Positions 25,066 through 57,656 of a stretch of DNA of 64,000 nucleotides are shown here, one piece after another. A program made the translations under genes and the position numbers. Source of the DNA: Bdellovibrio sp. 22V. GTDB taxonomy: Bacteria; Bdellovibrionota; Bdellovibrionia; Bdellovibrionales; Bdellovibrionaceae. The stretch lies in NCBI RefSeq assembly GCF_030169785.1, contig NZ_CP125854.1, positions 1,736,001 through 1,800,000 on the forward strand, in the 5' to 3' direction. The notes under the pieces were generated by a model. It was not told the DNA's origin and searched no databases. It saw only the letters and a program-made list of their open reading frames with translations. Positions within the stretch are counted from its first letter, which is position 1, and each line of letters begins with the position of its first letter.

Positions 25066-25941
25066 CTACACTTTGATGGTAACAAGTTTTTTAATTATTA
25101 CGCCACCGATTATTTGGAGAGAGAGCATCACGAACAGTAACACTAGACCAAGGGTTGTGCTAAACATTGGTTTGATGAATGCCGGATCTATCACAAGAAA
25201 CACGGCCATCAAGATAAACGGAATCATGGTGACGATAATCCCTTGCATGAGACCCTGTGCGGTCAAAGCTTGAATTTTTTTCTCTACCTTTTGTCTCTCA
25301 CGAATCACCATGACGATGGTCTGGAATGTCTCTGCCAAGTTACCGCCGGTCTCTTTAAGAATATTGATCGACGTTACGAACATTTGTACGTCAGGGCGAG
25401 GAATGCGATTTCCTAAATCGTTCAAAGCGCTTTCGAAACTGTCGCCGACTTGCATTTGATAAAGTACTTGTGCGAACTCTTGGCTGATCGGGTTTCCCAT
25501 GATCTCCACGACGCGCTTCATGGATTCCTGTGGATTGGATCCGGCTTTAATACCGTTGGCCATGATTGTAAGACCGTCCACCATTTGATCTACGAAACGT
25601 GTGCAACGCTGTTCGTAAATCAAGCGCACGAGTAAAAGAGGAAGCTGCCAGCCTGCGACCGTAATAGAAGCGCCGAAGACGAAGCCCATAAGAACGTTGG
25701 GCCAGAATGCCAAGAACACCAAGGCACCCACACCAAAGCTCATCAGGAGGATAAGAATGGTGATCTTCTTTTCGTCAACGTCATTTCCCATCAAACGAAG
25801 AAGTTTGATCACTTGATCACGCTGCCCAAGGCTGCGCTTATGAAGCCATGCGATTGCTTTGTCGGCCCAAAGGATAACAAAGATAAAAACGCAGATTCCA
25901 AAAAGTGGGATCATCACCCATTCGTTAAATAAGAACTTCAT
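25066..25941 (-). CDS. tadB: Tad pilus inner-membrane platform protein (T2SSF domain, TadB-like)
   Basis: A 291-residue protein. Membrane segments are near residues 10-27, 65-105 (two helices) and 225-285 (two helices), enclosing a GspF/T2SSF cytoplasmic domain (residues 110-235; FVDQMVDGLTIMANGIKAG, GNLAETFQTIVMVIRERQ). It forms the membrane base on which the TadA ATPase acts. Tad systems usually encode two such proteins (TadB and TadC). Only one is present here: the next gene is the RHS protein. Confidence 0.9.
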   Translation of the reverse strand: MKFLFNEWVMIPLFGICVFIFVILWADKAIAWLHKRSLGQRDQVIKLLRLMGNDVDEKKITILILLMSFGVGALVFLAFWPNVLMGFVFGASITVAGWQLPLLLVRLIYEQRCTRFVDQMVDGLTIMANGIKAGSNPQESMKRVVEIMGNPISQEFAQVLYQMQVGDSFESALNDLGNRIPRPDVQMFVTSINILKETGGNLAETFQTIVMVIRERQKVEKKIQALTAQGLMQGIIVTMIPFILMAVFLVIDPAFIKPMFSTTLGLVLLFVMLSLQIIGGVIIKKLVTIKV

Positions 25942-25944
25942 CTA

Positions 25945-28161
25945 CTACCCCGATTTTTTCACCGGTGCGACTCCTGGCATTTTTGGCATAGCCGCTGCGA
26001 TAGGCGGTTTCGGCTGTGCTGCTGCCGGGTTGTTTGTATTTGGATCATTCGCAAAGATCTCACGAGGAATCACAACACCTTTATCGCTCAGCTTTTGGAT
26101 AAAGCTTGGGATTGTACCTGTTGCCTGGAAGACCCCTTGGATCTTTCTGTTTTTGTCGTAACCTGTTTCTTTGAATCTGAAGATCTCTGCCAAAGTAACA
26201 ACGTCACCTTGCATACCTGCGACTTCCGTAATGCTTAAAAGCTTACGGCTACCGTCAGAAAGACGCGAGATTTGCACGATCAAGTTGACTGCGCCGGCGA
26301 TTTGTTCACGGATCGCGCGGACAGGAAGCTCCATACCCGACATCATACAAAGCGTTTCCAGACGCGCAATACATTCACGTGGACTGTTGGCGTGAGTCGT
26401 TGTCATAGAGCCATCGTGACCTGTATTCATCGCTTGCAACATATCAAGAGCGGCGCCGTCACGGCACTCACCCACGATGATGCGGTCGGGACGCATACGC
26501 AGGGCATTTTTGATCAAGTCACGAATCGTGACTGCGTTAGTTCCTTCCATAGAAGCGGGACGTGTCTCCAGACGGACGACGTGTTCCTGCTGCAATTGCA
26601 ACTCGGCCGCGTCCTCGACGGTGATCACACGTTCATTCGAAGGAATGAATGAGGAAAGCATATTCAACAAAGAGGTTTTACCTGAACCAGTACCACCAGA
26701 GATAACAACGTTCAAACCGTTTTCCACGCAGATGCGAAGGAAGTCGATCATGTTTTTCGTTGTACTTCCGTAGTTGATGTATTTTTCAGGAGTAATACCG
26801 CCTTTTTTAAATTTACGAATCGTCAAAGCCGGTCCGTCGATCGCAAGAGGTTCAATCACGGCGTTCACACGCGATCCATCTTTCAAGCGCGCATCCACGT
26901 AAGGTGTAGAGTCGTTGATTTGACGGCCGAGAGGAGTCACGATCCTTTCAATAATACGACGAAGGTGATCATTCGATGTGAATGTCACTGGACTTAGCTG
27001 AACCTTTCCGCCTTTTTCAAGAAAGATTTTTCTGAAACCATTTACCATGATCTCTGAAACATCCGGATCGGCGAGAAGGTCTTCCAAAGGACCTAAGCCC
27101 AAAGCCTCTTCTAAAACTTCTTTGATAATTTTAGAACGCTCTTCACGCGCAAGATCAGGAGCTTCACGGTCGACAATCAGAGTGATTTCTCTTTTCGTTT
27201 TCTCGCGAACTTCTTTTTCTTTGTTCTCGTCCTGTTTGCCATCGACCAGAAGTTTTTTAAGATCGACCGTGCGGATCAATTCATTGTGCACACGGATCTT
27301 GAGCAGCGTGCGCGCATCCATCCCCGCAGTGGCTATTGCACCCGCAGTTCCGTCGGCAGCAGAGGCCGCAGCCGGTGCAGGAGGTTTGGGACGAGAAACG
27401 GTTTTAAGTCTTTGCAGAACTCCGCCCGTTAACTTACGAGCGACATCATAATAAGCCGCAGTCACCGGAGCTTTCGGCGAAGAGATTACAAAAGGCGTGT
27501 ACTTCTGCAAAGCCATCATAGATGTGGCTTCGTCTTGAGGAATAATTCCTAAGAATGGAAGCTGTAACTGATTTGAAATCGTTTGCGGCGACAATCCCGT
27601 CGGTGACGCTTTATTGATAACGAGCTGAAACATATCTTTCGGCAACGTTGCAGAAAGAAGTTCATTGATAAGACGTTGAGTCTGCGTAACGACAAGAACT
27701 TCAGGGCTGGTCACGATCATGATCGCAGTGGCTTCTTGAAGTACCGCCATCTGCGCAGGACCCAAATCAGTGCCGACGTCGACGATCACAAATTTGAAAG
27801 CACGACTGAAAAATTCCATGAGCTTGCCAAGAAGATCCGGAGAAATATTCAATGCTTCTTCAGGGCCGCGAACCGCACCCAAGTAGGCGAGACCTGACTG
27901 GTGCATCGTCACGAGAGTGTTCATCGGCTGAGAGTTGAGTGAGCCTTGGAAGTTCGCAAGTTCTTTCAAAGTTTTTTGCGGCTTCAAACCCATGATGACG
28001 TTCTGATCGCCGACGGATTTTGCGTCAGCATCAACAAGAAGCACTTGCGTGCGAAGTTCTGTCATGAGGGTGCAAGCAAGATTGGCTGCAAAGACGCTCT
28101 TTCCGACGCCGCCTTTACCGCCAACAACTGCGATGAGATTACAATTAGGATTAATAGCCAA
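25945..28161 (-). CDS. TadZ (ParA-like)-TadA (CpaF ATPase) fusion
   Basis: A 738-residue protein. Residues 1-250 are a MinD/ParA ATPase with deviant Walker A GGKGGVGKS (residues 9-17), as in CpaE/TadZ, which places the pilus machinery at a pole. A Pro/Ala linker (about 252-280) joins a CpaF/TadA-type secretion ATPase with Walker A GGTGSGKTS near residue 490, an Asp box, Walker B RIIVGECRDG and a THANSPRE His box. A second Pro-rich tail ends the protein. The two are separate genes in most Tad loci. It lies 3 bp from tadB. Confidence 0.92.
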   Translation of the reverse strand: MAINPNCNLIAVVGGKGGVGKSVFAANLACTLMTELRTQVLLVDADAKSVGDQNVIMGLKPQKTLKELANFQGSLNSQPMNTLVTMHQSGLAYLGAVRGPEEALNISPDLLGKLMEFFSRAFKFVIVDVGTDLGPAQMAVLQEATAIMIVTSPEVLVVTQTQRLINELLSATLPKDMFQLVINKASPTGLSPQTISNQLQLPFLGIIPQDEATSMMALQKYTPFVISSPKAPVTAAYYDVARKLTGGVLQRLKTVSRPKPPAPAAASAADGTAGAIATAGMDARTLLKIRVHNELIRTVDLKKLLVDGKQDENKEKEVREKTKREITLIVDREAPDLAREERSKIIKEVLEEALGLGPLEDLLADPDVSEIMVNGFRKIFLEKGGKVQLSPVTFTSNDHLRRIIERIVTPLGRQINDSTPYVDARLKDGSRVNAVIEPLAIDGPALTIRKFKKGGITPEKYINYGSTTKNMIDFLRICVENGLNVVISGGTGSGKTSLLNMLSSFIPSNERVITVEDAAELQLQQEHVVRLETRPASMEGTNAVTIRDLIKNALRMRPDRIIVGECRDGAALDMLQAMNTGHDGSMTTTHANSPRECIARLETLCMMSGMELPVRAIREQIAGAVNLIVQISRLSDGSRKLLSITEVAGMQGDVVTLAEIFRFKETGYDKNRKIQGVFQATGTIPSFIQKLSDKGVVIPREIFANDPNTNNPAAAQPKPPIAAAMPKMPGVAPVKKSG

Positions 28162-28214
28162 TGCAGACCTCCAAACGACTTATCGGCGTAAAGAGGAGGC
28201 CCGTTTACGAGATC

Positions 28215-29744
28215 TTAGTCGCGTAAACGGAACTTCTTCTTAATTTGCTCTGCTCCAGAGCTTGCAGAAGTCTTCACGATGGGGGTCACAAACACAACAA
28301 ACTGACTTTGTTGTTTGATGAAGTCTTTAGATGCATACAAACTGATGATCGGGTTCTTTTGTCCAGCTGGACGATTGTAACCCGTTGCTGTGGAGTTACG
28401 GATCAAACCGCCCACAGCCGCACTTTGACGGTCACGCACAGTCACCGTGCTCGTCATTTCATTGGCACTCGTGATCGGCGCGCCATTCGGCGTATTACCG
28501 ACCAAGCTGCTCACTTTAAACATCATCTCCATGTGCACGCTTCCGGATTTTTCACCCAAAAGAACCGGAGTGATTGCCGTCACGATACCGACTTCCGCGA
28601 AGGCAGTTCCTTGTGTTCCATCTTTTCCGATCACAGGATAAGGTTGGTTCGTCACTTGCTTGATTTCACCTTTTTTGCCGTCTTCCACGATCAAGCTTGT
28701 ACTTTCAAGAACACGCGCATGACCATGCTGTTTCGCCCAGTTCAATTTAGGCAAAAGGTTGGAAACAGTTCCCGTGATAGAACTGATCACACCACCTGGT
28801 GAGTCCCCACCGGTTTGGAAAGTCATCTGCGAGTTATCACCCAATTCCGGAGTGAACTGGAACTTAAATGCTTTTGAGTAGTCTTTGTTCAACTCAACGT
28901 AGTGAACGACGAGTTGGATCATCTTAGACGGTGGTTTTGGTGCCGCTTCCTTGATTTGGATAAGGTTGATGACACCGTCATTCGCCGGTTTACGCTTTTT
29001 GATGACACCTTTTTCTTCCGCCGCTTCAATCACGATATCCGGAAGATAGGTTTTCGCCACGATCTCGGCGCGTTTTGATTCCTCTTCGCTGTTTGCCCAG
29101 CCTTGAAGGATGATTTTATCATTCACGGCACGAACTTCGATTTCGGGATTGTTGATATCGCGAGCGATAAACTCGGCGATTTTCTTTTGCGCCAACGGAC
29201 TTAAAGTCACAAGCGAAGATGCTTGTTCGCCAAATTGTTGAACAACGTTATAAATGCGCGCCAAGTCCTTTGGTAAAAGGATCTGGCCATCGACGACAAC
29301 GCGATTGTTTACGATCTTGATGTTGATGCCTTCAATATCGCCAAGGAGGGCGCGCATTTCACGCACCACTTTGTCGAGCTTGCTTTTCTTCACGTCAATA
29401 CGATACTCAGCAACGATTTTACCATTGCGTTTGTCATGGATTGTAAGTGTCGCAAAACCTTCGCCTCTAGGTGTGAAGCGAATGACATTGAGATCTTTAG
29501 CGTAAGCCGCCGTCACGATACGACGGAAGTCACCTTTAAACTCGATACTGTCTGGAAGCGGGGGAAGCTTCTCATCTTGTTCGATTCCAAGAGTCAGGTT
29601 GATGAATTTACGAGAGCGGTAAGCACCAGTGGCTTCGTCACCCGAAGATGTCGAAGGTTCGGCCACAAGTTCTTCTTGCGCAAGGGCCACGCTTCCGCAG
29701 CAGAGGCTGATCAGCAGTCCTGCGAGTAAAAAATGTTTTCTCAT
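28215..29744 (-). CDS. cpaC: Tad/Flp pilus secretin (CpaC/RcpA)
   Basis: A 509-residue protein that forms the outer-membrane channel for the pilus. The signal peptide ends ALAQ (residue 23). Residues 45-130 are the CpaC N-terminal domain; 135-245 hold BON-like modules (VDGQILLPKDLARIYNVVQQ and IILQGWANSEEE). The secretin core from about 285 includes the VVHYVELN strand, VTNQPYPVIG and GGLIRNS near the end. It lies 31 bp downstream of cpaB and 54 bp before the TadZ-TadA gene. Confidence 0.93.
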   Translation of the reverse strand: MRKHFLLAGLLISLCCGSVALAQEELVAEPSTSSGDEATGAYRSRKFINLTLGIEQDEKLPPLPDSIEFKGDFRRIVTAAYAKDLNVIRFTPRGEGFATLTIHDKRNGKIVAEYRIDVKKSKLDKVVREMRALLGDIEGINIKIVNNRVVVDGQILLPKDLARIYNVVQQFGEQASSLVTLSPLAQKKIAEFIARDINNPEIEVRAVNDKIILQGWANSEEESKRAEIVAKTYLPDIVIEAAEEKGVIKKRKPANDGVINLIQIKEAAPKPPSKMIQLVVHYVELNKDYSKAFKFQFTPELGDNSQMTFQTGGDSPGGVISSITGTVSNLLPKLNWAKQHGHARVLESTSLIVEDGKKGEIKQVTNQPYPVIGKDGTQGTAFAEVGIVTAITPVLLGEKSGSVHMEMMFKVSSLVGNTPNGAPITSANEMTSTVTVRDRQSAAVGGLIRNSTATGYNRPAGQKNPIISLYASKDFIKQQSQFVVFVTPIVKTSASSGAEQIKKKFRLRD

Positions 29745-29774
29745 AAATCCCCCTTATTCCCCTTCTAGACCCAA

Positions 29775-30692
29775 TTACAGAGTTTGAAATCCATTGCCGC
29801 GAGGTCTTTGTGCTGGCGGAGGTGCTTGTCGTTGTTGTTGTACAGGCGGAGTATAAACTGGTCGTGGCGGCATCGCGATGGCAGGGGCCGCAGGCGCGCC
29901 ATCAAGTGCTACCACAGGTTTGCCAAGAACCGAGTCCGACGTGGAGCTGGGCATTCTTGGCGGAACTGTTCTGTCGTTTGAGTTTCGCAAAGCGAAGAAC
30001 AAGTTTCCTGGAGCGGTTGAAAGAATATAGAAAAGGTCCTGCGCCTCTTTCGGAGTCGCTTCAACCGTGATCGTCGTATATTTTGTGTCTCCCGTAAGGG
30101 CGATCTGAGTCAGATTTTTTCCCGTGGAATCCAATTCGAACATGCGCGGAATGTTGTTCACAACGCTCACGCCTGTCGCCAAAACGACAACGTCCGACAT
30201 CATCGCAAAAACTTCACGACGTTGATTCACACCTTTTCCTGTGTCGACAGCGGCGTAGATATCCACGCGATCACCAGGACGAATAAGTTTCGCAACACCA
30301 CGGACTTCATCCACGGGAATTGTCACGGCTCTTTTGCTTGGCGCCACTTGCAAAGCAATACCTGTGTCAGGGCCCGGAGTAAGAAGATTGTTCTTCACAA
30401 CCATCTGTCCTTTACGGATAGGTACTGCCGCAACGTTACCGATGATTTCATCAGGAACAGTGATTGCGTCCGGCTGAATAAAGTCAGCGGGAAGTTCTTT
30501 TGTTTCAACCATTGTATCGTAGATTGTTTGCATTTCTGCGATATCTTCTTTTGCAACCACGACACGTTTAGTGGAACCGAAGCGCTTGTCGTACTCGGCT
30601 TTCTTTTCCTGCGAATAGCTGTAGAGCAAGAACGTCGCAAAGACACCTGCTGCGATGGAAAGCCATAAGTTTCTTGTCTCATTCGATCCCAT
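29775..30692 (-). CDS. cpaB: Flp pilus assembly protein CpaB (RcpC)
   Basis: A 305-residue protein. An N-terminal membrane anchor (residues 8-26) is followed by a SAF domain (VVVAKEDIAEMQTI, RKGQMVVKNNLL) and the RcpC core (KRAVTIPVDEVRGVAKLIRPGDRVDIYA). The C-terminal 60 residues are Pro/Gln/Arg-rich and probably flexible. It works with the secretin across the periplasm. Confidence 0.93.
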   Translation of the reverse strand: MGSNETRNLWLSIAAGVFATFLLYSYSQEKKAEYDKRFGSTKRVVVAKEDIAEMQTIYDTMVETKELPADFIQPDAITVPDEIIGNVAAVPIRKGQMVVKNNLLTPGPDTGIALQVAPSKRAVTIPVDEVRGVAKLIRPGDRVDIYAAVDTGKGVNQRREVFAMMSDVVVLATGVSVVNNIPRMFELDSTGKNLTQIALTGDTKYTTITVEATPKEAQDLFYILSTAPGNLFFALRNSNDRTVPPRMPSSTSDSVLGKPVVALDGAPAAPAIAMPPRPVYTPPVQQQRQAPPPAQRPRGNGFQTL

Positions 30693-30708
30693 AAAGTCCT
30701 ACTTCTTT

Positions 30709-31197
30709 CTAAGTGCCGCACTTAGCATTTAAACAAATGCCATACGTTGTTTTGATCCAAATGGGGTTCACGCCGATGGTTTCGTTTCTGCCTTCAGGAA
30801 TTCCACGCACAGTCGAGTGAACATTTTTACTGTTCCCGACGATGTCTGCGGCTCTCTTAGGCTGAAAATTCATAAAATCAATTGTTCTGGATGATGCCAC
30901 CCAGTTGTCTCCGCCTTTGGAAGACTCTGAAACAGTTCCATGCACGCGCATGCCGACTTGGGAATACTCAATCACGTCAGCTCCGATGTTGCGGAAGTAC
31001 GTAAGATTGGAACGGTTGCGAAAGGTTTCAAAGGCATAGTTTCTTGAAGCAATCGAGTTCAAAATGCCTGTGTGAATAGCGCCAAAGAATCCCAAGGAGA
31101 AATTCACGAAAAGAACAATAATGACAAGGATGGGGATCATTTCAAAGATCGCCATCCCTTTTTCATTGCGAATGAAGGACTTACGTTTTTTTAGCAT
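30709..31197 (-). CDS. TadE-like pseudopilin
   Basis: A 162-residue protein. A short basic leader with NEKG/MAIFE gives a Gly followed by Glu at +5, the prepilin-peptidase cleavage pattern, then a hydrophobic helix (IPILVIIVLFVNFSLGFF). This is the TadE/TadF layout of minor pseudopilins. The mature domain has two cysteines near the C-terminus (GICLNAKCGT). It overlaps the preceding gene by 7 bp. Confidence 0.82.
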   Translation of the reverse strand: MLKKRKSFIRNEKGMAIFEMIPILVIIVLFVNFSLGFFGAIHTGILNSIASRNYAFETFRNRSNLTYFRNIGADVIEYSQVGMRVHGTVSESSKGGDNWVASSRTIDFMNFQPKRAADIVGNSKNVHSTVRGIPEGRNETIGVNPIWIKTTYGICLNAKCGT

Positions 31198-31841
31198 CCG
31201 TTGTCCTCCATCGGTACATACTTATTCGCGCCGGATCCGCCCAGTACCTTGTAGCGGGGGTCGAGATTTAAAATCGCTGAGTAGCGCTGTTTGATTTGCA
31301 AATCCCAACATTCTTTGAACGTGGGTTCGCGAATCAAAAGGCCTGTGACTTTAGCCGTAAAACCTTCGCCGTTAGGATCGTCACTTGTCGAACCAAGGAA
31401 GGCGATTTTTACGCTGAGGAGTTTTGGATTGTAATTAAAGCGCACGCCGACTTGAGGCACGCGATCGGCAACGACCTTGTAGTCGTTTTCAAATGTGTTG
31501 CCGTTCAATCCACCCTGACGGATATCCAGATCCGTTAAAGTGAACCAACCGCCATCTGGGTTGTTAAAGAGAGGTTTTAAAACGGCGTTATTAACTAAAG
31601 CTTTGAATTTGTCTTCGCCCATCTGCTTTTGCCTGTCTGTATCGAGGTGTCCGGCAGCGTGAGCACGCGAAGTAGAGAAGGCGATATATTGCGCCACTTC
31701 GGCCATTGAGAGCGTGAAGTTCAATGCGAATAAAACAATGCACAAGCCCGCGCTCAAGACGAGAGCAAAAATAAACTCGGCGGAAAGCATTCCGCGGGAG
31801 TTTTGCACTGGTTTAAAGATTCCGGCATTGAACCTTTTCAT
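31191..31841 (-). CDS. TadE-like pseudopilin, larger
   Basis: A 216-residue protein. The leader ends NSRG/MLSAE (Glu at +5) before a hydrophobic helix (FIFALVLSAGLCIVLFALNF), matching processed pseudopilins. The mature domain is about 170 residues with a Cys near the end and one near residue 185. Part of a run of minor pilin genes with overlaps of a few bases. Possible TadF equivalent. Confidence 0.8.
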   Translation of the reverse strand: MKRFNAGIFKPVQNSRGMLSAEFIFALVLSAGLCIVLFALNFTLSMAEVAQYIAFSTSRAHAAGHLDTDRQKQMGEDKFKALVNNAVLKPLFNNPDGGWFTLTDLDIRQGGLNGNTFENDYKVVADRVPQVGVRFNYNPKLLSVKIAFLGSTSDDPNGEGFTAKVTGLLIREPTFKECWDLQIKQRYSAILNLDPRYKVLGGSGANKYVPMEDNGC

Positions 31842-31850
31842 GCGCTCCTT

Positions 31851-32102
31851 CTAGTTGGGTTTCACGGTGAGCGAGCGGTCGATCTGATTGGGATGCAACT
31901 GACGAGCTTTGTCAGGCGTATCCCATACTCCCGCTTCGATCATTCCAGAAACTTTTTGCCATGGGCCAGCGATCATCTTTGCTAAGAACTTGCTTTCGCG
32001 AAGCTGATTTGTGGCCCAGAGAAAAACACTGATGGTGACAATCATCATAAGGACTGTCTCGATCACAAACTGACCTTTGTTATTAGATACAGCTCGTTTC
32101 AT
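31851..32102 (-). CDS. Small pseudopilin-like protein
   Basis: An 83-residue protein. NNKG/QFVIE again shows Gly at -1 and Glu at +5, followed by hydrophobic TVLMMIVTISVFLW. The soluble part is short. Probably a minor pilin. The start codon overlaps the end of the previous gene (1 bp shared at 32102). Confidence 0.75.
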   Translation of the reverse strand: MKRAVSNNKGQFVIETVLMMIVTISVFLWATNQLRESKFLAKMIAGPWQKVSGMIEAGVWDTPDKARQLHPNQIDRSLTVKPN

Positions 32103-32290
32103 CAGTTACCTGTCCATCCAATGTGATTGCCCCGTTCAGGCTTAAAGCCATCTCCTGTCGCCAATTGCTGTTCAACTCGAGCGCCCAAACGAGGACCCGA
32201 ATTGCGAAAAGCGTCCCCTGGAGCTGTCATATAAAACTTCAGCCCAATGAAAAACGCAGCAAATAGCAACAGGACGTACTCTATGGTCAT
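32102..32290 (-). CDS. Small leaderless pilin-like membrane protein
   Basis: A 62-residue protein. It begins directly with MTIEYVLLLFAAFF, which looks like the mature N-terminus of a Flp-type pilin (Glu near the front of the hydrophobic helix) but without the basic leader and Gly expected by prepilin peptidase. A GGAGG ribosome site lies six bases upstream. It could be a TadE-related accessory subunit or a decayed pilin. Confidence 0.65.
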   Translation of the reverse strand: MTIEYVLLLFAAFFIGLKFYMTAPGDAFRNSGPRLGARVEQQLATGDGFKPERGNHIGWTGN

Positions 32291-32318
32291 CCAACCTCCA
32301 AAGTGGAGTAATCAGAGA

Positions 32319-32384
32319 CTACTGAACTTGACCGATCATGCCTTGAAGCTCACTGATCTTACCGCTCACAGTCGTTTTGATTTT
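32319..32384 (-). pseudogene. C-terminal remnant resembling a Flp pilin
   Basis: A 21-codon open stretch ending in TAG at 32319 reads IKTTVSGKISELQGMIGQVQ-like C-terminal helix text, with an in-frame TAA just before it (32385-32387) and no normal start. The composition (short amphipathic Lys/Gly/Ile-rich end) and position at the head of the Tad operon, where flp usually lies, fit the tail of a Flp pilin whose N-terminal part is missing. A homopolymer-flanked inverted-repeat element begins within about 40 bp. It could also be chance. Confidence 0.45.
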
Positions 32385-32423
32385 TTATTTTAAAAAAAAA
32401 ACACAAACAAACACCACAACCAA

Positions 32424-32611
32424 ATTTTATGGGGCGTCGTGGGCCTTGGGGGCCTGTGTTTAAGGTTGATCCGAAGGGAGGCCTTTGCCGGCGCCACGAT
32501 GGCGCGAACCGCCCGGAAGGGCGGCGGCAACAGAGCCCGGACGGCGTGCCTTCCGAAGCGACCAACCTTAAACACAGGTCCTCAAGGCCCCCACCGAACC
32601 CCCATAAAAAT
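32424..32611. repeat. GC-rich imperfect inverted-repeat element with nested hairpins
   Basis: Left arm 32424-32477 and right arm 32549-32611 pair over about 55 bp; the longest perfect block is CCTGTGTTTAAGGTTG at 32453-32468, with its complement at 32562-32577. The centre contains smaller hairpins (CGCC-ACGAT-GGCG and CCGCCC-GGAA-GGGCGG). It is much richer in GC than the flanks and holds no credible gene. Likely an intergenic MITE/REP-like repeat. It separates the Tad operon from the divergent Fis-type gene. Confidence 0.75.
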
Positions 32612-32771
32612 CAAGCGCGAACCCGGAGCCAGAGAAAAGTCCAGTGTTTCAGCGGTTTTAAACTGTCTCAAAAAAAAATTGCAACTGGCCCTAAATTCTC
32701 AGCGTGATACGCCGATAGGTACAAAGTGAGTCAATTAGCACTTGTTAATGTTTCAAAAGGGGAGGACTAGA

Positions 32772-33203
32772 ATGTCACGCACAGTAATGATCGTGGTGAG
32801 CGATAACCAGGAAACGATTGAGAACACAAAGAAGTACTGGGAGAACCATGATGTGACAGTTCAAGCATATTCGTCAGCACAATGGCGCGAAGGTCTTGAT
32901 AATGCGTTTTTCAGACAACAACTTGTAGCGGGAGTTCCTGCATTGATCTCTGGCAACAGCCCAGTGAATTCAGATGTCGGTGGAAATGTTATCCAATTCC
33001 CAACAGCTACATCTTCATCAACGAGCGTACAAAAGATGGAAGAGCTAGAAGCTCATGCTATCGAAAATGCGATCGTACAATATAAAGGCAACCTCACTGA
33101 GGCGGCTAAAGCTTTGGGTATCGGTCGCGCGACTCTTTACCGCAAAGTGAAGCAATACCACATTGATCCTTCTGCAGCTCGCAAGAAGAAAGTGGCTGCT
33201 TAA
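32772..33203 (+). CDS. Fis-family helix-turn-helix DNA-binding protein
   Basis: A 143-residue protein from the ATG at 32772, chosen for the GGAGG site immediately upstream. Residues 1-85 look like a degenerate receiver-like domain (TVMIVVSDNQETIENTKKYW) without the phosphorylation residues. A low-complexity Ser/Thr linker leads to a Fis/NtrC-type HTH (residues 90-132: ENAIVQYKGNLTEAAKALG, IGRATLYRKVKQY). No AAA+ domain, so it is not a sigma-54 activator. It diverges from the Tad operon and is a natural candidate regulator of it. Confidence 0.85.
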   Translation: MSRTVMIVVSDNQETIENTKKYWENHDVTVQAYSSAQWREGLDNAFFRQQLVAGVPALISGNSPVNSDVGGNVIQFPTATSSSTSVQKMEELEAHAIENAIVQYKGNLTEAAKALGIGRATLYRKVKQYHIDPSAARKKKVAA

Positions 33204-37565: not shown

Positions 37566-38444
37566 ATGAAGCTAGAGAAGCTCATTAAGTCAGTGATTGT
37601 ATTGACAACTTTATCCCTCGCTTGTGCGGCTCAAGCTGCTCCTGCGACCCAAATGATTCCTTACTATGGGGAAGAGTTTTACCGCGATTTGAAATCGGGT
37701 ATCTCCGATAAGGATCTGCAACTCCGTTTAAAAACAGTTCTCAGAAGTTATCACCAGTCACGCGCTGGCAGCCTCGACCAAATCGTCAAAGCTTGCCAAG
37801 GTGGACAAGGGAAATGCTACGCACATCAAGCGATCGGCTACACAGCTGCAAGAGTTTTCCTTCTTGGTAACTACTATCTTGTCAAAGACGGTAACAACGG
37901 TTACGCCGTTCACGACGTTTATTGTGATACAGATCGTACACGCAATGACTTCCGCGGTTCTCCACCAGCGCCGGGAAAAATTCCAGATAACAACGTGATC
38001 AATGTTGAGCACACATGGCCGCAAAGCCATTTCACAAGAAAGCATCCGGATGATGTGCAAAAGTCTGATCTGCATCATCTTTTCCCAACGGATTCACAAT
38101 TGAACTCTATTCGTGGCAACAATATGTTCGGTGAAGTTTCTAAAGACTTGCTGGATTTGAAATGCCCGGCTTCTCGTTATGGAATTGGAACCGCAGGTTC
38201 TGAAGAGGTTTTCGAACCACCTAAGAATCATCAAGGAAACGTAGCGCGTGCGTTGTTCTACTTCTCGATTCGTTATGATCTTCCGATTGATCCTCGCGAA
38301 GAAAACGTGCTTCGCAAATGGAATCACGAAGATCCTGTGGATGAAGAAGAAATGAGAAGAAACAACGAGATCTTCAAAGTTCAAGGTAACAGAAATCCAT
38401 TCGTAGATTATCAAGAACTCGCCGACAGAATTTCCGACTTTTAG
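37566..38444 (+). CDS. Secreted endonuclease I (EndA/NucM family), copy 1
   Basis: A 292-residue protein. The signal peptide ends AQAAP (residue 24). Core motifs of the DNA/RNA non-specific EndA family: YYGEEFYRDL, EHTWPQS (catalytic His near 149), KSDLHHLFP and NSIRGNNMFGEV. It degrades nucleic acids in the periplasm or in prey. Close paralogue at 56799. Bdellovibrio secreted nucleases of this type have been linked to prey DNA digestion and biofilm turnover. A MITE-like repeat begins 3 bp after the stop. Confidence 0.95.
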   Translation: MKLEKLIKSVIVLTTLSLACAAQAAPATQMIPYYGEEFYRDLKSGISDKDLQLRLKTVLRSYHQSRAGSLDQIVKACQGGQGKCYAHQAIGYTAARVFLLGNYYLVKDGNNGYAVHDVYCDTDRTRNDFRGSPPAPGKIPDNNVINVEHTWPQSHFTRKHPDDVQKSDLHHLFPTDSQLNSIRGNNMFGEVSKDLLDLKCPASRYGIGTAGSEEVFEPPKNHQGNVARALFYFSIRYDLPIDPREENVLRKWNHEDPVDEEEMRRNNEIFKVQGNRNPFVDYQELADRISDF

Positions 38445-38446
38445 TC

Positions 38447-38568
38447 GGCTGGTGAAAAAGGCCCATCCGACTTCGTTGGAGGACTTCGGTCCTCCTCCGG
38501 CGTACTTGGAGTACGCCTGCGTGCGGGCCGAAATCATCCGCCTCGCATCTGAACCTTTTTGACCAGCC
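38447..38568. repeat. MITE-like intergenic repeat with 15 bp terminal inverted repeats
   Basis: The ends GGCTGGTGAAAAAGG and CCTTTTTGACCAGCC pair at 14 of 15 positions. Inside are GGCCC/GGGCC pairing and two hairpins, GGAGGAC-TTCG-GTCCTCC and GGCGTACT-TGG-AGTACGCC. I recall similar elements with GGCTGTTGAAAAAG-type ends and a GCGTACT/AGTACGC core between genes in several deltaproteobacterial genomes, though I cannot check this here. No ORF. Confidence 0.72.
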
Positions 38569-38591
38569 TTCGAACATAATAAAAAAATTCG

Positions 38592-38617: not shown

Positions 38618-38683
38618 CATTTTAAAAATCTTAAAAAATCTGAAATTAGTCTCTTGCATTCCAGTTTTTGTTATGCTGCAATC

Positions 38684-38793
38684 ATTTTTACGGGAGGGGT
38701 GATACCAAGGAAGGTCTCGGGGAGCATGATGTTCTCACCTCTATTTTAATTTTACTTAAGAAAGGCCGGTAGAAATACCGGCCTTTTTCTTTT
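38684..38793 (+). ncRNA. Candidate small RNA (about 110 nt)
   Basis: An extended -10 (TG-T-TATGCT, 38669-38677) precedes about 80 bases without a credible gene, ending in a strong terminator. The body can fold: GAGGGGTGA (38694-38702) opposite TCACCTC (38735-38741), with ACC/GGT inside. It contains GGGAGGGG followed by a possible 16-codon GTG-started ORF, so a leader peptide is the alternative. It lies 130 bp before the hydrolase gene at 38928. No known RNA family recognised. Confidence 0.45.
38761..38793 (+). terminator. Strong rho-independent terminator
   Basis: An 11 bp perfect stem, AAAGGCCGGTA/TACCGGCCTTT, with loop GAAA and a T-run. No gene ends nearby, so it implies a short transcript upstream. 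Confidence 0.9.
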
Positions 38794-56704: not shown

Positions 56705-56798
56705 ATCCAAGGAATAACTTTTAGGAGTTTCCGTATAAGCTGCGAATATGGCGTGGCGTTTCTACAAGGCACCAAGAAATGCCTGACTATGGAGGGGT

Positions 56799-57656
56799 AT
56801 GAAGACTGTAGCGTCTCTTTTCGTTCTGATGTTTGCGAGCCTGTGTTCGGCGGCTCAAGTTTCTCAACAAATTCCATACTACGGAGAGCAATTCTATCAA
56901 GACCTCTCTGCCGGTATTAGCGACGACGAGCTAAAAACAACCATCAAAAAAGTTTTGCGCAGTTATCACCTTAAAACCAACGGCGGCCTTGATCAAATCG
57001 TGAATGCTTGTAGCGGCAGCAACTGTTACTCTCACATCTCTTTAGGTTACGATCGCGCGCGTATTTTCATGATGGGCGTATATTACCTTATTGATCATGG
57101 CGGCGGCGAATACGGCGTTTTTGACGTTTACTGTAACAAAGAAAAAACGACGAAAGACTTTCCAAACGGAAATGGCCCCGGTCCTCGCGTGATCCCTGAC
57201 GGCAATATTCTGAACACTGAGCACACGTGGCCCCAAAGCCGCTTCTCGGGCCGTTTTGACAAAGGCATGCAAAAGTCCGATTTGCACCACTTGTATCCTA
57301 CTGACAATCACATGAACTCCGTCCGCGGCAACAATCCGTTCGGCGAAGTCGTTAAAGATTCTAAGATCCTGGACTGCCGCGAATCACGTACAGGTAAAGC
57401 AGCCAGTGGCGGCGCTGAAGTGTTCGAGCCACCGCAAAATCACAAAGGCAATGTTGCCAGAGCGATTTTCTATTTCTCTGTTCGTTACGATCTTCCAGTT
57501 GATTCCCGCCAAGAGGCCACTCTACGCAAATGGAATCAAGAAGATCCCGTTGATGAAGAAGAAGTTCGTCGCAATGACTTCATCCAAGAAGTCCAAGGAA
57601 ATCGCAATCCTTTCGTCGACTATCCAGAGCTTATTGACAGCTTAGGAGATTTCTAA
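56799..57656 (+). CDS. Secreted endonuclease I (EndA/NucM family), copy 2
   Basis: A 285-residue paralogue of the protein at 37566. GGAGG precedes the ATG. The signal peptide ends SAAQV (residue 20). EHTWPQS, KSDLHHLYP, NSVRGNNPFGE and the C-terminal RKWNQEDPVDEEEVRRN and NRNPFVDYPE blocks are all conserved with copy 1, so both should be active nucleases. The stop overlaps the convergent DUF502 gene by 4 bp. Confidence 0.95.
   Translation: MKTVASLFVLMFASLCSAAQVSQQIPYYGEQFYQDLSAGISDDELKTTIKKVLRSYHLKTNGGLDQIVNACSGSNCYSHISLGYDRARIFMMGVYYLIDHGGGEYGVFDVYCNKEKTTKDFPNGNGPGPRVIPDGNILNTEHTWPQSRFSGRFDKGMQKSDLHHLYPTDNHMNSVRGNNPFGEVVKDSKILDCRESRTGKAASGGAEVFEPPQNHKGNVARAIFYFSVRYDLPVDSRQEATLRKWNQEDPVDEEEVRRNDFIQEVQGNRNPFVDYPELIDSLGDF

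Follow-up and report, generated by a model that had tools for sequence, protein, structure and literature searches.

The pilin gene flp1 is broken in the deposited chromosome of Bdellovibrio sp. 22V, whereas the organism itself very probably carries it unbroken: we regard it as highly likely that its truncation is an assembly error and that segments were put together out of order when the deposited chromosome was assembled. The stretch of DNA analysed here, called the window, comprises 64,000 nucleotides (contig positions 1736001–1800000 of a single-contig genome of 3.60 Mb), and between window positions 32319 and 32611 it holds, as a sequence-only reading of this DNA had proposed, only the 3' tail of the gene. 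What speaks for misassembly is the presence of both gene halves, their exact overlaps, the garbled ends and the contiguity of the locus in relatives. The finding averts a false claim of a Bdellovibrio without a pilin that strain HD100 needs for predation, and it marks this single-contig assembly as one in which several joins are wrong.

Table 1. Features around the split flp1 gene (window positions unless a contig position is indicated)
Feature	Position	Strand	Remarks
Tad operon	25066..32290	-	TadB-like T2SSF, fused ParA/T2SSE, secretin, RcpC/CpaB, pseudopilin-like proteins, flp2
flp2	32102..32290	-	trimmed Flp pilin, 62-aa ORF; tblastn orthologues in nine relatives checked
flp1 C-terminal tail	32319..32384	-	assigned as 3' end of split flp1; 21 codons and TAG
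Probable homopolymer-garbled continuation of flp1	32385..32424	-	putative assembly scar at the join; homopolymer scan, shuffles
Dispersed hairpin repeat, 185 bp	32425..32609	+	self-complementary arms; model match 32467-32566; upstream of the Fis-like gene
FliA-type promoter of the Fis-like gene	32691..32717	+	CTAAA-N16-CCGATA; consensus PMC3627812
Fis-family HTH gene	32772..33203	+	first gene of the segment that probably adjoins wrongly
Further hairpin-family copies	contig 88001, 1111079, 1178364, 1412654, 2564110, 3431392, 3431707		also in other genomes

The tail and its stop are present on the minus strand, as had been described, with 21 open codons, KIKTTVSGKISELQGMIGQVQ (32322–32384), preceded by an in-frame TAA and closed by TAG (32319–32321). 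By itself it matches no Pfam family. Its 5' end of about 30 bp is an exact overlap with a piece at contig 1829635–1829664 (the 30 bases common to both are AAATCAAAACGACTGTGAGCGGTAAGATCA); because of this DNA identity and because the tail takes the operon position of flp1 in relatives, it is, on sequence grounds, the C-terminus of the Tad-locus pilin Flp1, and the pilin identity suggested earlier holds.

Searching the whole genome for the Flp family led to contig 1829.6 kb, on the same strand and 61 kb off, and so did the tail used as query. There, outside the window (contig 1829635–1829831), lies the 5' part of flp1 with its ATG, pilin motif and FliA-type promoter, so that the search of the genome for another flp, which the sequence-only reading had proposed, turned up the missing part with its Flp1_like domain. 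The ORF starts MKKFKNFSKKLLKNKSGQGATEYILLLVVVVALVLMFKDQIKTTVSGKIT, and the piece (GQGATEYILLLVVVVALV) carries the Flp motif (G-X4-E-Y and a hydrophobic helix) near its N-terminus and scores 38.1 bits against PF16982 Flp1_like (cut-off 33.5). It forms an open frame of 73 codons that keeps the first ~50 residues of Flp1, and its promoter, TAAAG-N16-CCGATA, differs little from the FliA consensus that has been reported for promoters of the attack phase (PMC3627812). When the two pieces are overlapped via the 30 bp, they give a Flp1 of 60 amino acids, near the length found in relatives. With the 5' part in the genome and the break coinciding with an assembly scar, the earlier suggestion that the strain lacks its local major pilin is not borne out, and a strain without the flp1 pilin is very probably not what this is.

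The Tad gene content listed in the sequence-only reading (T2SSF, fused ParA/T2SSE, secretin, RcpC and pseudopilin-like proteins) was found in full. Its pilin inventory was right in counting flp1 only as a tail and missed flp2, one complete local pilin gene and the first complete gene of the operon, downstream of the flp1 tail, which matches orthologues of the Tad-locus gene of that name in B. bacteriovorus (PMC5430801). Directly upstream of flp2 and tad as deposited there is only the 3' tail, the 5' part standing beyond a join that we judge false; a scan of the minus strand from 32280 to 32800 gave no FliA-type site, and so none upstream of flp2. In relatives the locus is continuous, as the alignment with related genomes proposed earlier confirmed: flp1 and tad are contiguous in G006, G026 and the other loci examined, and N-terminal matches to flp1 occur in 23 of 23 genus relatives, matches which taken alone are no proof of an intact 3' end in each genome. 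The contig stretches 1720766–1768290 and 1829654–1851165, which flank the split gene, are largely collinear with G006 bases 63787–106105 and 106217–129830, respectively, and are neighbours in that genome.

At the other side of the break (contig 1829634/5) the 5' piece of flp1 abuts antisense sequence of the MoxR/bat operon, and batA is cut there. The operon is contiguous in relatives, comparison with which places its other half at contig bases from 82 upward, that is, at the contig start, so that one breakpoint coincides with the start of the contig. One half of batA is at 1829634 and the other runs from base 98 of the 3.6-Mb contig; joined via a 20-bp overlap, they give a BatA/VWA protein of 336 amino acids. 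Contig bases 1–97, which start TATTTTTATTATATTATT and end GGGGGTTTTTTTTTTTAAAAAAAAAAAAAAAA, reproduce the correct batA continuation with homopolymer corruption (local score 59, shuffle maximum 47; anchored score 39.5, shuffle maximum 27). The T/A homopolymer zone reported beside the flp1 tail is there as well, and it looks like the same type of corruption, in this case of flp1, although less clearly than for batA: its 40 nt alone do not match flp1 significantly (61 of 1000 shuffles reach the score), and 90 nt anchored on the repeat do (2 of 1000). In a homopolymer-collapse scan of ~347 kb, which took in 240 kb surrounding the window together with the contig's first 100 kb and final 6.6 kb, the three worst 60-mers lay at 1669545, 31 and 1768375; the one at 1768375 is the tract beside the flp1 tail, which ranks third. 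A low-quality, corrupted copy of the true continuation is accordingly seen at bases 1–97 and more weakly beside the tail, and exact short overlaps of matching ends are found for flp1 (30 bp) and batA (20 bp). Garbled tracts and end copies of this kind are what one would expect where contig ends have been joined with no gap symbols between them, and therefore we take the truncation of flp1 to be an artefact. Elsewhere on the contig, a homopolymer-garbled tract at 1669545–1669640 destroys the C-terminal part of hsp33 and is another assembly scar, and the last 21 bases (3601611–3601631) are an inverted copy of 1870756–1870776.

The assembly would then contain three segments, S1–S3, with a false join, one of several, at window position ~32424. 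S1 (contig 1 to ~1768424) would end inside flp1 in error-ridden sequence; S2 (~1768425–1829634), beginning with the hairpin and the Fis-like gene of another locus, would have been placed next; and S3 (from 1829635) would open with the genuine 5' part of flp1. The true order would be S1–S3 at flp1 and S2–S1 at batA, with flp1 in the cell an intact gene of 60 codons directly upstream of flp2 and tad under its own FliA-type promoter, and with the hairpin, upstream of the Fis-like gene, a dispersed-repeat copy like any other. This segment order and an intact flp1 in the living strain are what we infer as most likely. Against misassembly stand the clean join between flp1 and batA at 1829634/5 and the fact that neighbouring synteny breaks are partly real, block order differing between species. 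A flagellin cluster at the contig end would sit beside the Fis-like gene if the two were linked, an arrangement not seen in relatives, and that link was dropped as unsupported by them.

A real rearrangement would account for the same layout if a 61-kb block, from the Fis-like gene to the MoxR/bat operon, had moved into flp1 and parted it from tad, leaving a 73-aa pilin variant with a new C-terminus expressed from its own promoter and the tad genes under another promoter. Gene order in the genus is fluid, the block is bounded by chromosomal genes of two loci that lie far apart in G006, and the 5' piece does remain open for 73 codons with the first ~50 residues of Flp1 kept; yet this account needs a breakpoint within ~100 bp of the contig start, must accommodate, at both ends of S1, corrupted versions of the proper continuation, and leaves flp2 with no FliA-type promoter upstream on the minus strand, though flp1 and flp2 are needed for predation in HD100 (PMC5430801). 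We consider it quite improbable. A 61-kb mobile island with target duplication was rejected, since the ends are chromosomal genes of two distant loci and one boundary lies at the contig start; a search of a plasmid collection gave no match. Nor do we give any real credence to a locus ancestrally without a major pilin in which the tail is a chance frame: a tail of only 21 codons with no Pfam match by itself would suit it, but the exact 30-bp identity with flp1 and the positional match to flp1 in relatives go against it.

The sequence-only reading had instead raised the idea that a hairpin element took the place of the 5' part of flp1 by inserting there. The inverted repeat of roughly 190 bp on which this was built exists (185 bp), with arms at 32425–32471 and 32560–32609 that are 87–90% complementary and a fold of -121 kcal/mol (z = -9), far beyond chance, and it lies ~40 bp from the tail. 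The 5' part, however, is elsewhere in the genome and not lost, and in G020, G005 and G001, where tad is elsewhere, the hairpin core is found ahead of this same Fis-like gene and in the orientation seen here; because the core keeps that position, the hairpin belongs on the Fis-like gene's side of the join. In G006 the 5.8-kb block of this gene is found at 1.17 Mb, a long way from tad, which is at 0.1 Mb. With the hairpin native to the Fis-like locus, insertion into flp1 is ruled out for practical purposes, and we think it extremely unlikely as the cause of the break. Taken as a whole, the earlier reading stood in identifying the tail as Flp1, broken as deposited, and failed in naming the hairpin as the cause and in holding the pilin lost.

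The hairpin belongs to a real, genus-wide repeat family, and nothing else in this analysis has any novelty. Scoring with a covariance model, which took in at most 67 candidates per genome, gave at least 11 matches in the own genome and at least 1–30 per genome in 22 of 23 genus relatives; outside the genus, two further genera of the family yielded a few matches and the rest of the order one weak match. Some copies are arranged as inverted (-/+) pairs, 244–374 bp apart. Rfam yielded only sub-threshold matches at the hairpin, none at gathering score, and an Rfam identity was dropped. A non-exhaustive comparison of HD100 APsRNA coordinates (attack-phase small RNAs) with the element positions in G006, taken as HD100, gave no match.

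Between copies (n=50) the arms are barely more similar than chance (54%, against 51% when shuffled), and the core is 79% similar. A MAFFT alignment of full elements misaligned the variable arms, which were tested by partner swapping instead: in 49 of 50 copies the left arm paired best with the right arm of its own copy, with mean pairing energies of -53 kcal/mol for own and -18 kcal/mol for swapped partners. In the core, double changes occur in 19 of 24 pairs and make up 157 cells, compared with 46 in shuffles; one-sided changes, G-U among them, account for only 7 cells. These copies were retrieved using a single core as query, and many of them share ancestry. In the arms G-U mismatches (43) are not above A-C mismatches (52), counts to which conserved internal loops contribute. 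Because double Watson-Crick changes greatly outnumber G-U intermediates, the pattern suggests that pairing may be kept at the DNA level (as a cruciform, or in single-strand transposition or template switching) and not as RNA, a reading we offer as a lead rather than a demonstration. Literature searches found no description of the family, and we propose, tentatively and with more doubt than conviction, an undescribed Bdellovibrio family with a conserved multi-hairpin core and copy-specific arms, near-perfectly complementary within each copy, whose pairing is kept at the DNA level. In any case it is a testable system for the origin and persistence of palindromic repeats.

The window also contains a second multi-copy element (~38442–38575), with matches of ~71–81% identity at many places in the own genome and in relatives, beside which the stretch ~38626–38793 is 91% identical in two relatives. 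A purine riboswitch at 56711–56809 scores above the Rfam gathering score.

Set against REP/BIME-type palindromic repeats (PMC2817692), the hairpin family is likewise a many-copy set of dispersed intergenic palindromes, some in inverted pairs, although its 11 own matches, and the at least 1–30 per Bdellovibrio genome where it is present, are fewer than the more than 100 that REPs usually reach. It differs from REP/BIME repeats in its length of ~185 bp and in the long copy-specific arms around a conserved multi-hairpin core of ~100 nt. The Flp1 described here resembles that of the B. bacteriovorus Tad locus (flp1, bd0119; PMC5430801) in its operon position upstream of flp2, in an N-terminal GQGATEY followed by a hydrophobic stretch, in its FliA-type promoter and, once the pieces are overlapped, in its 60 residues; unlike bd0119, flp1 as deposited here lies in two pieces 61 kb apart, which we ascribe to misassembly.
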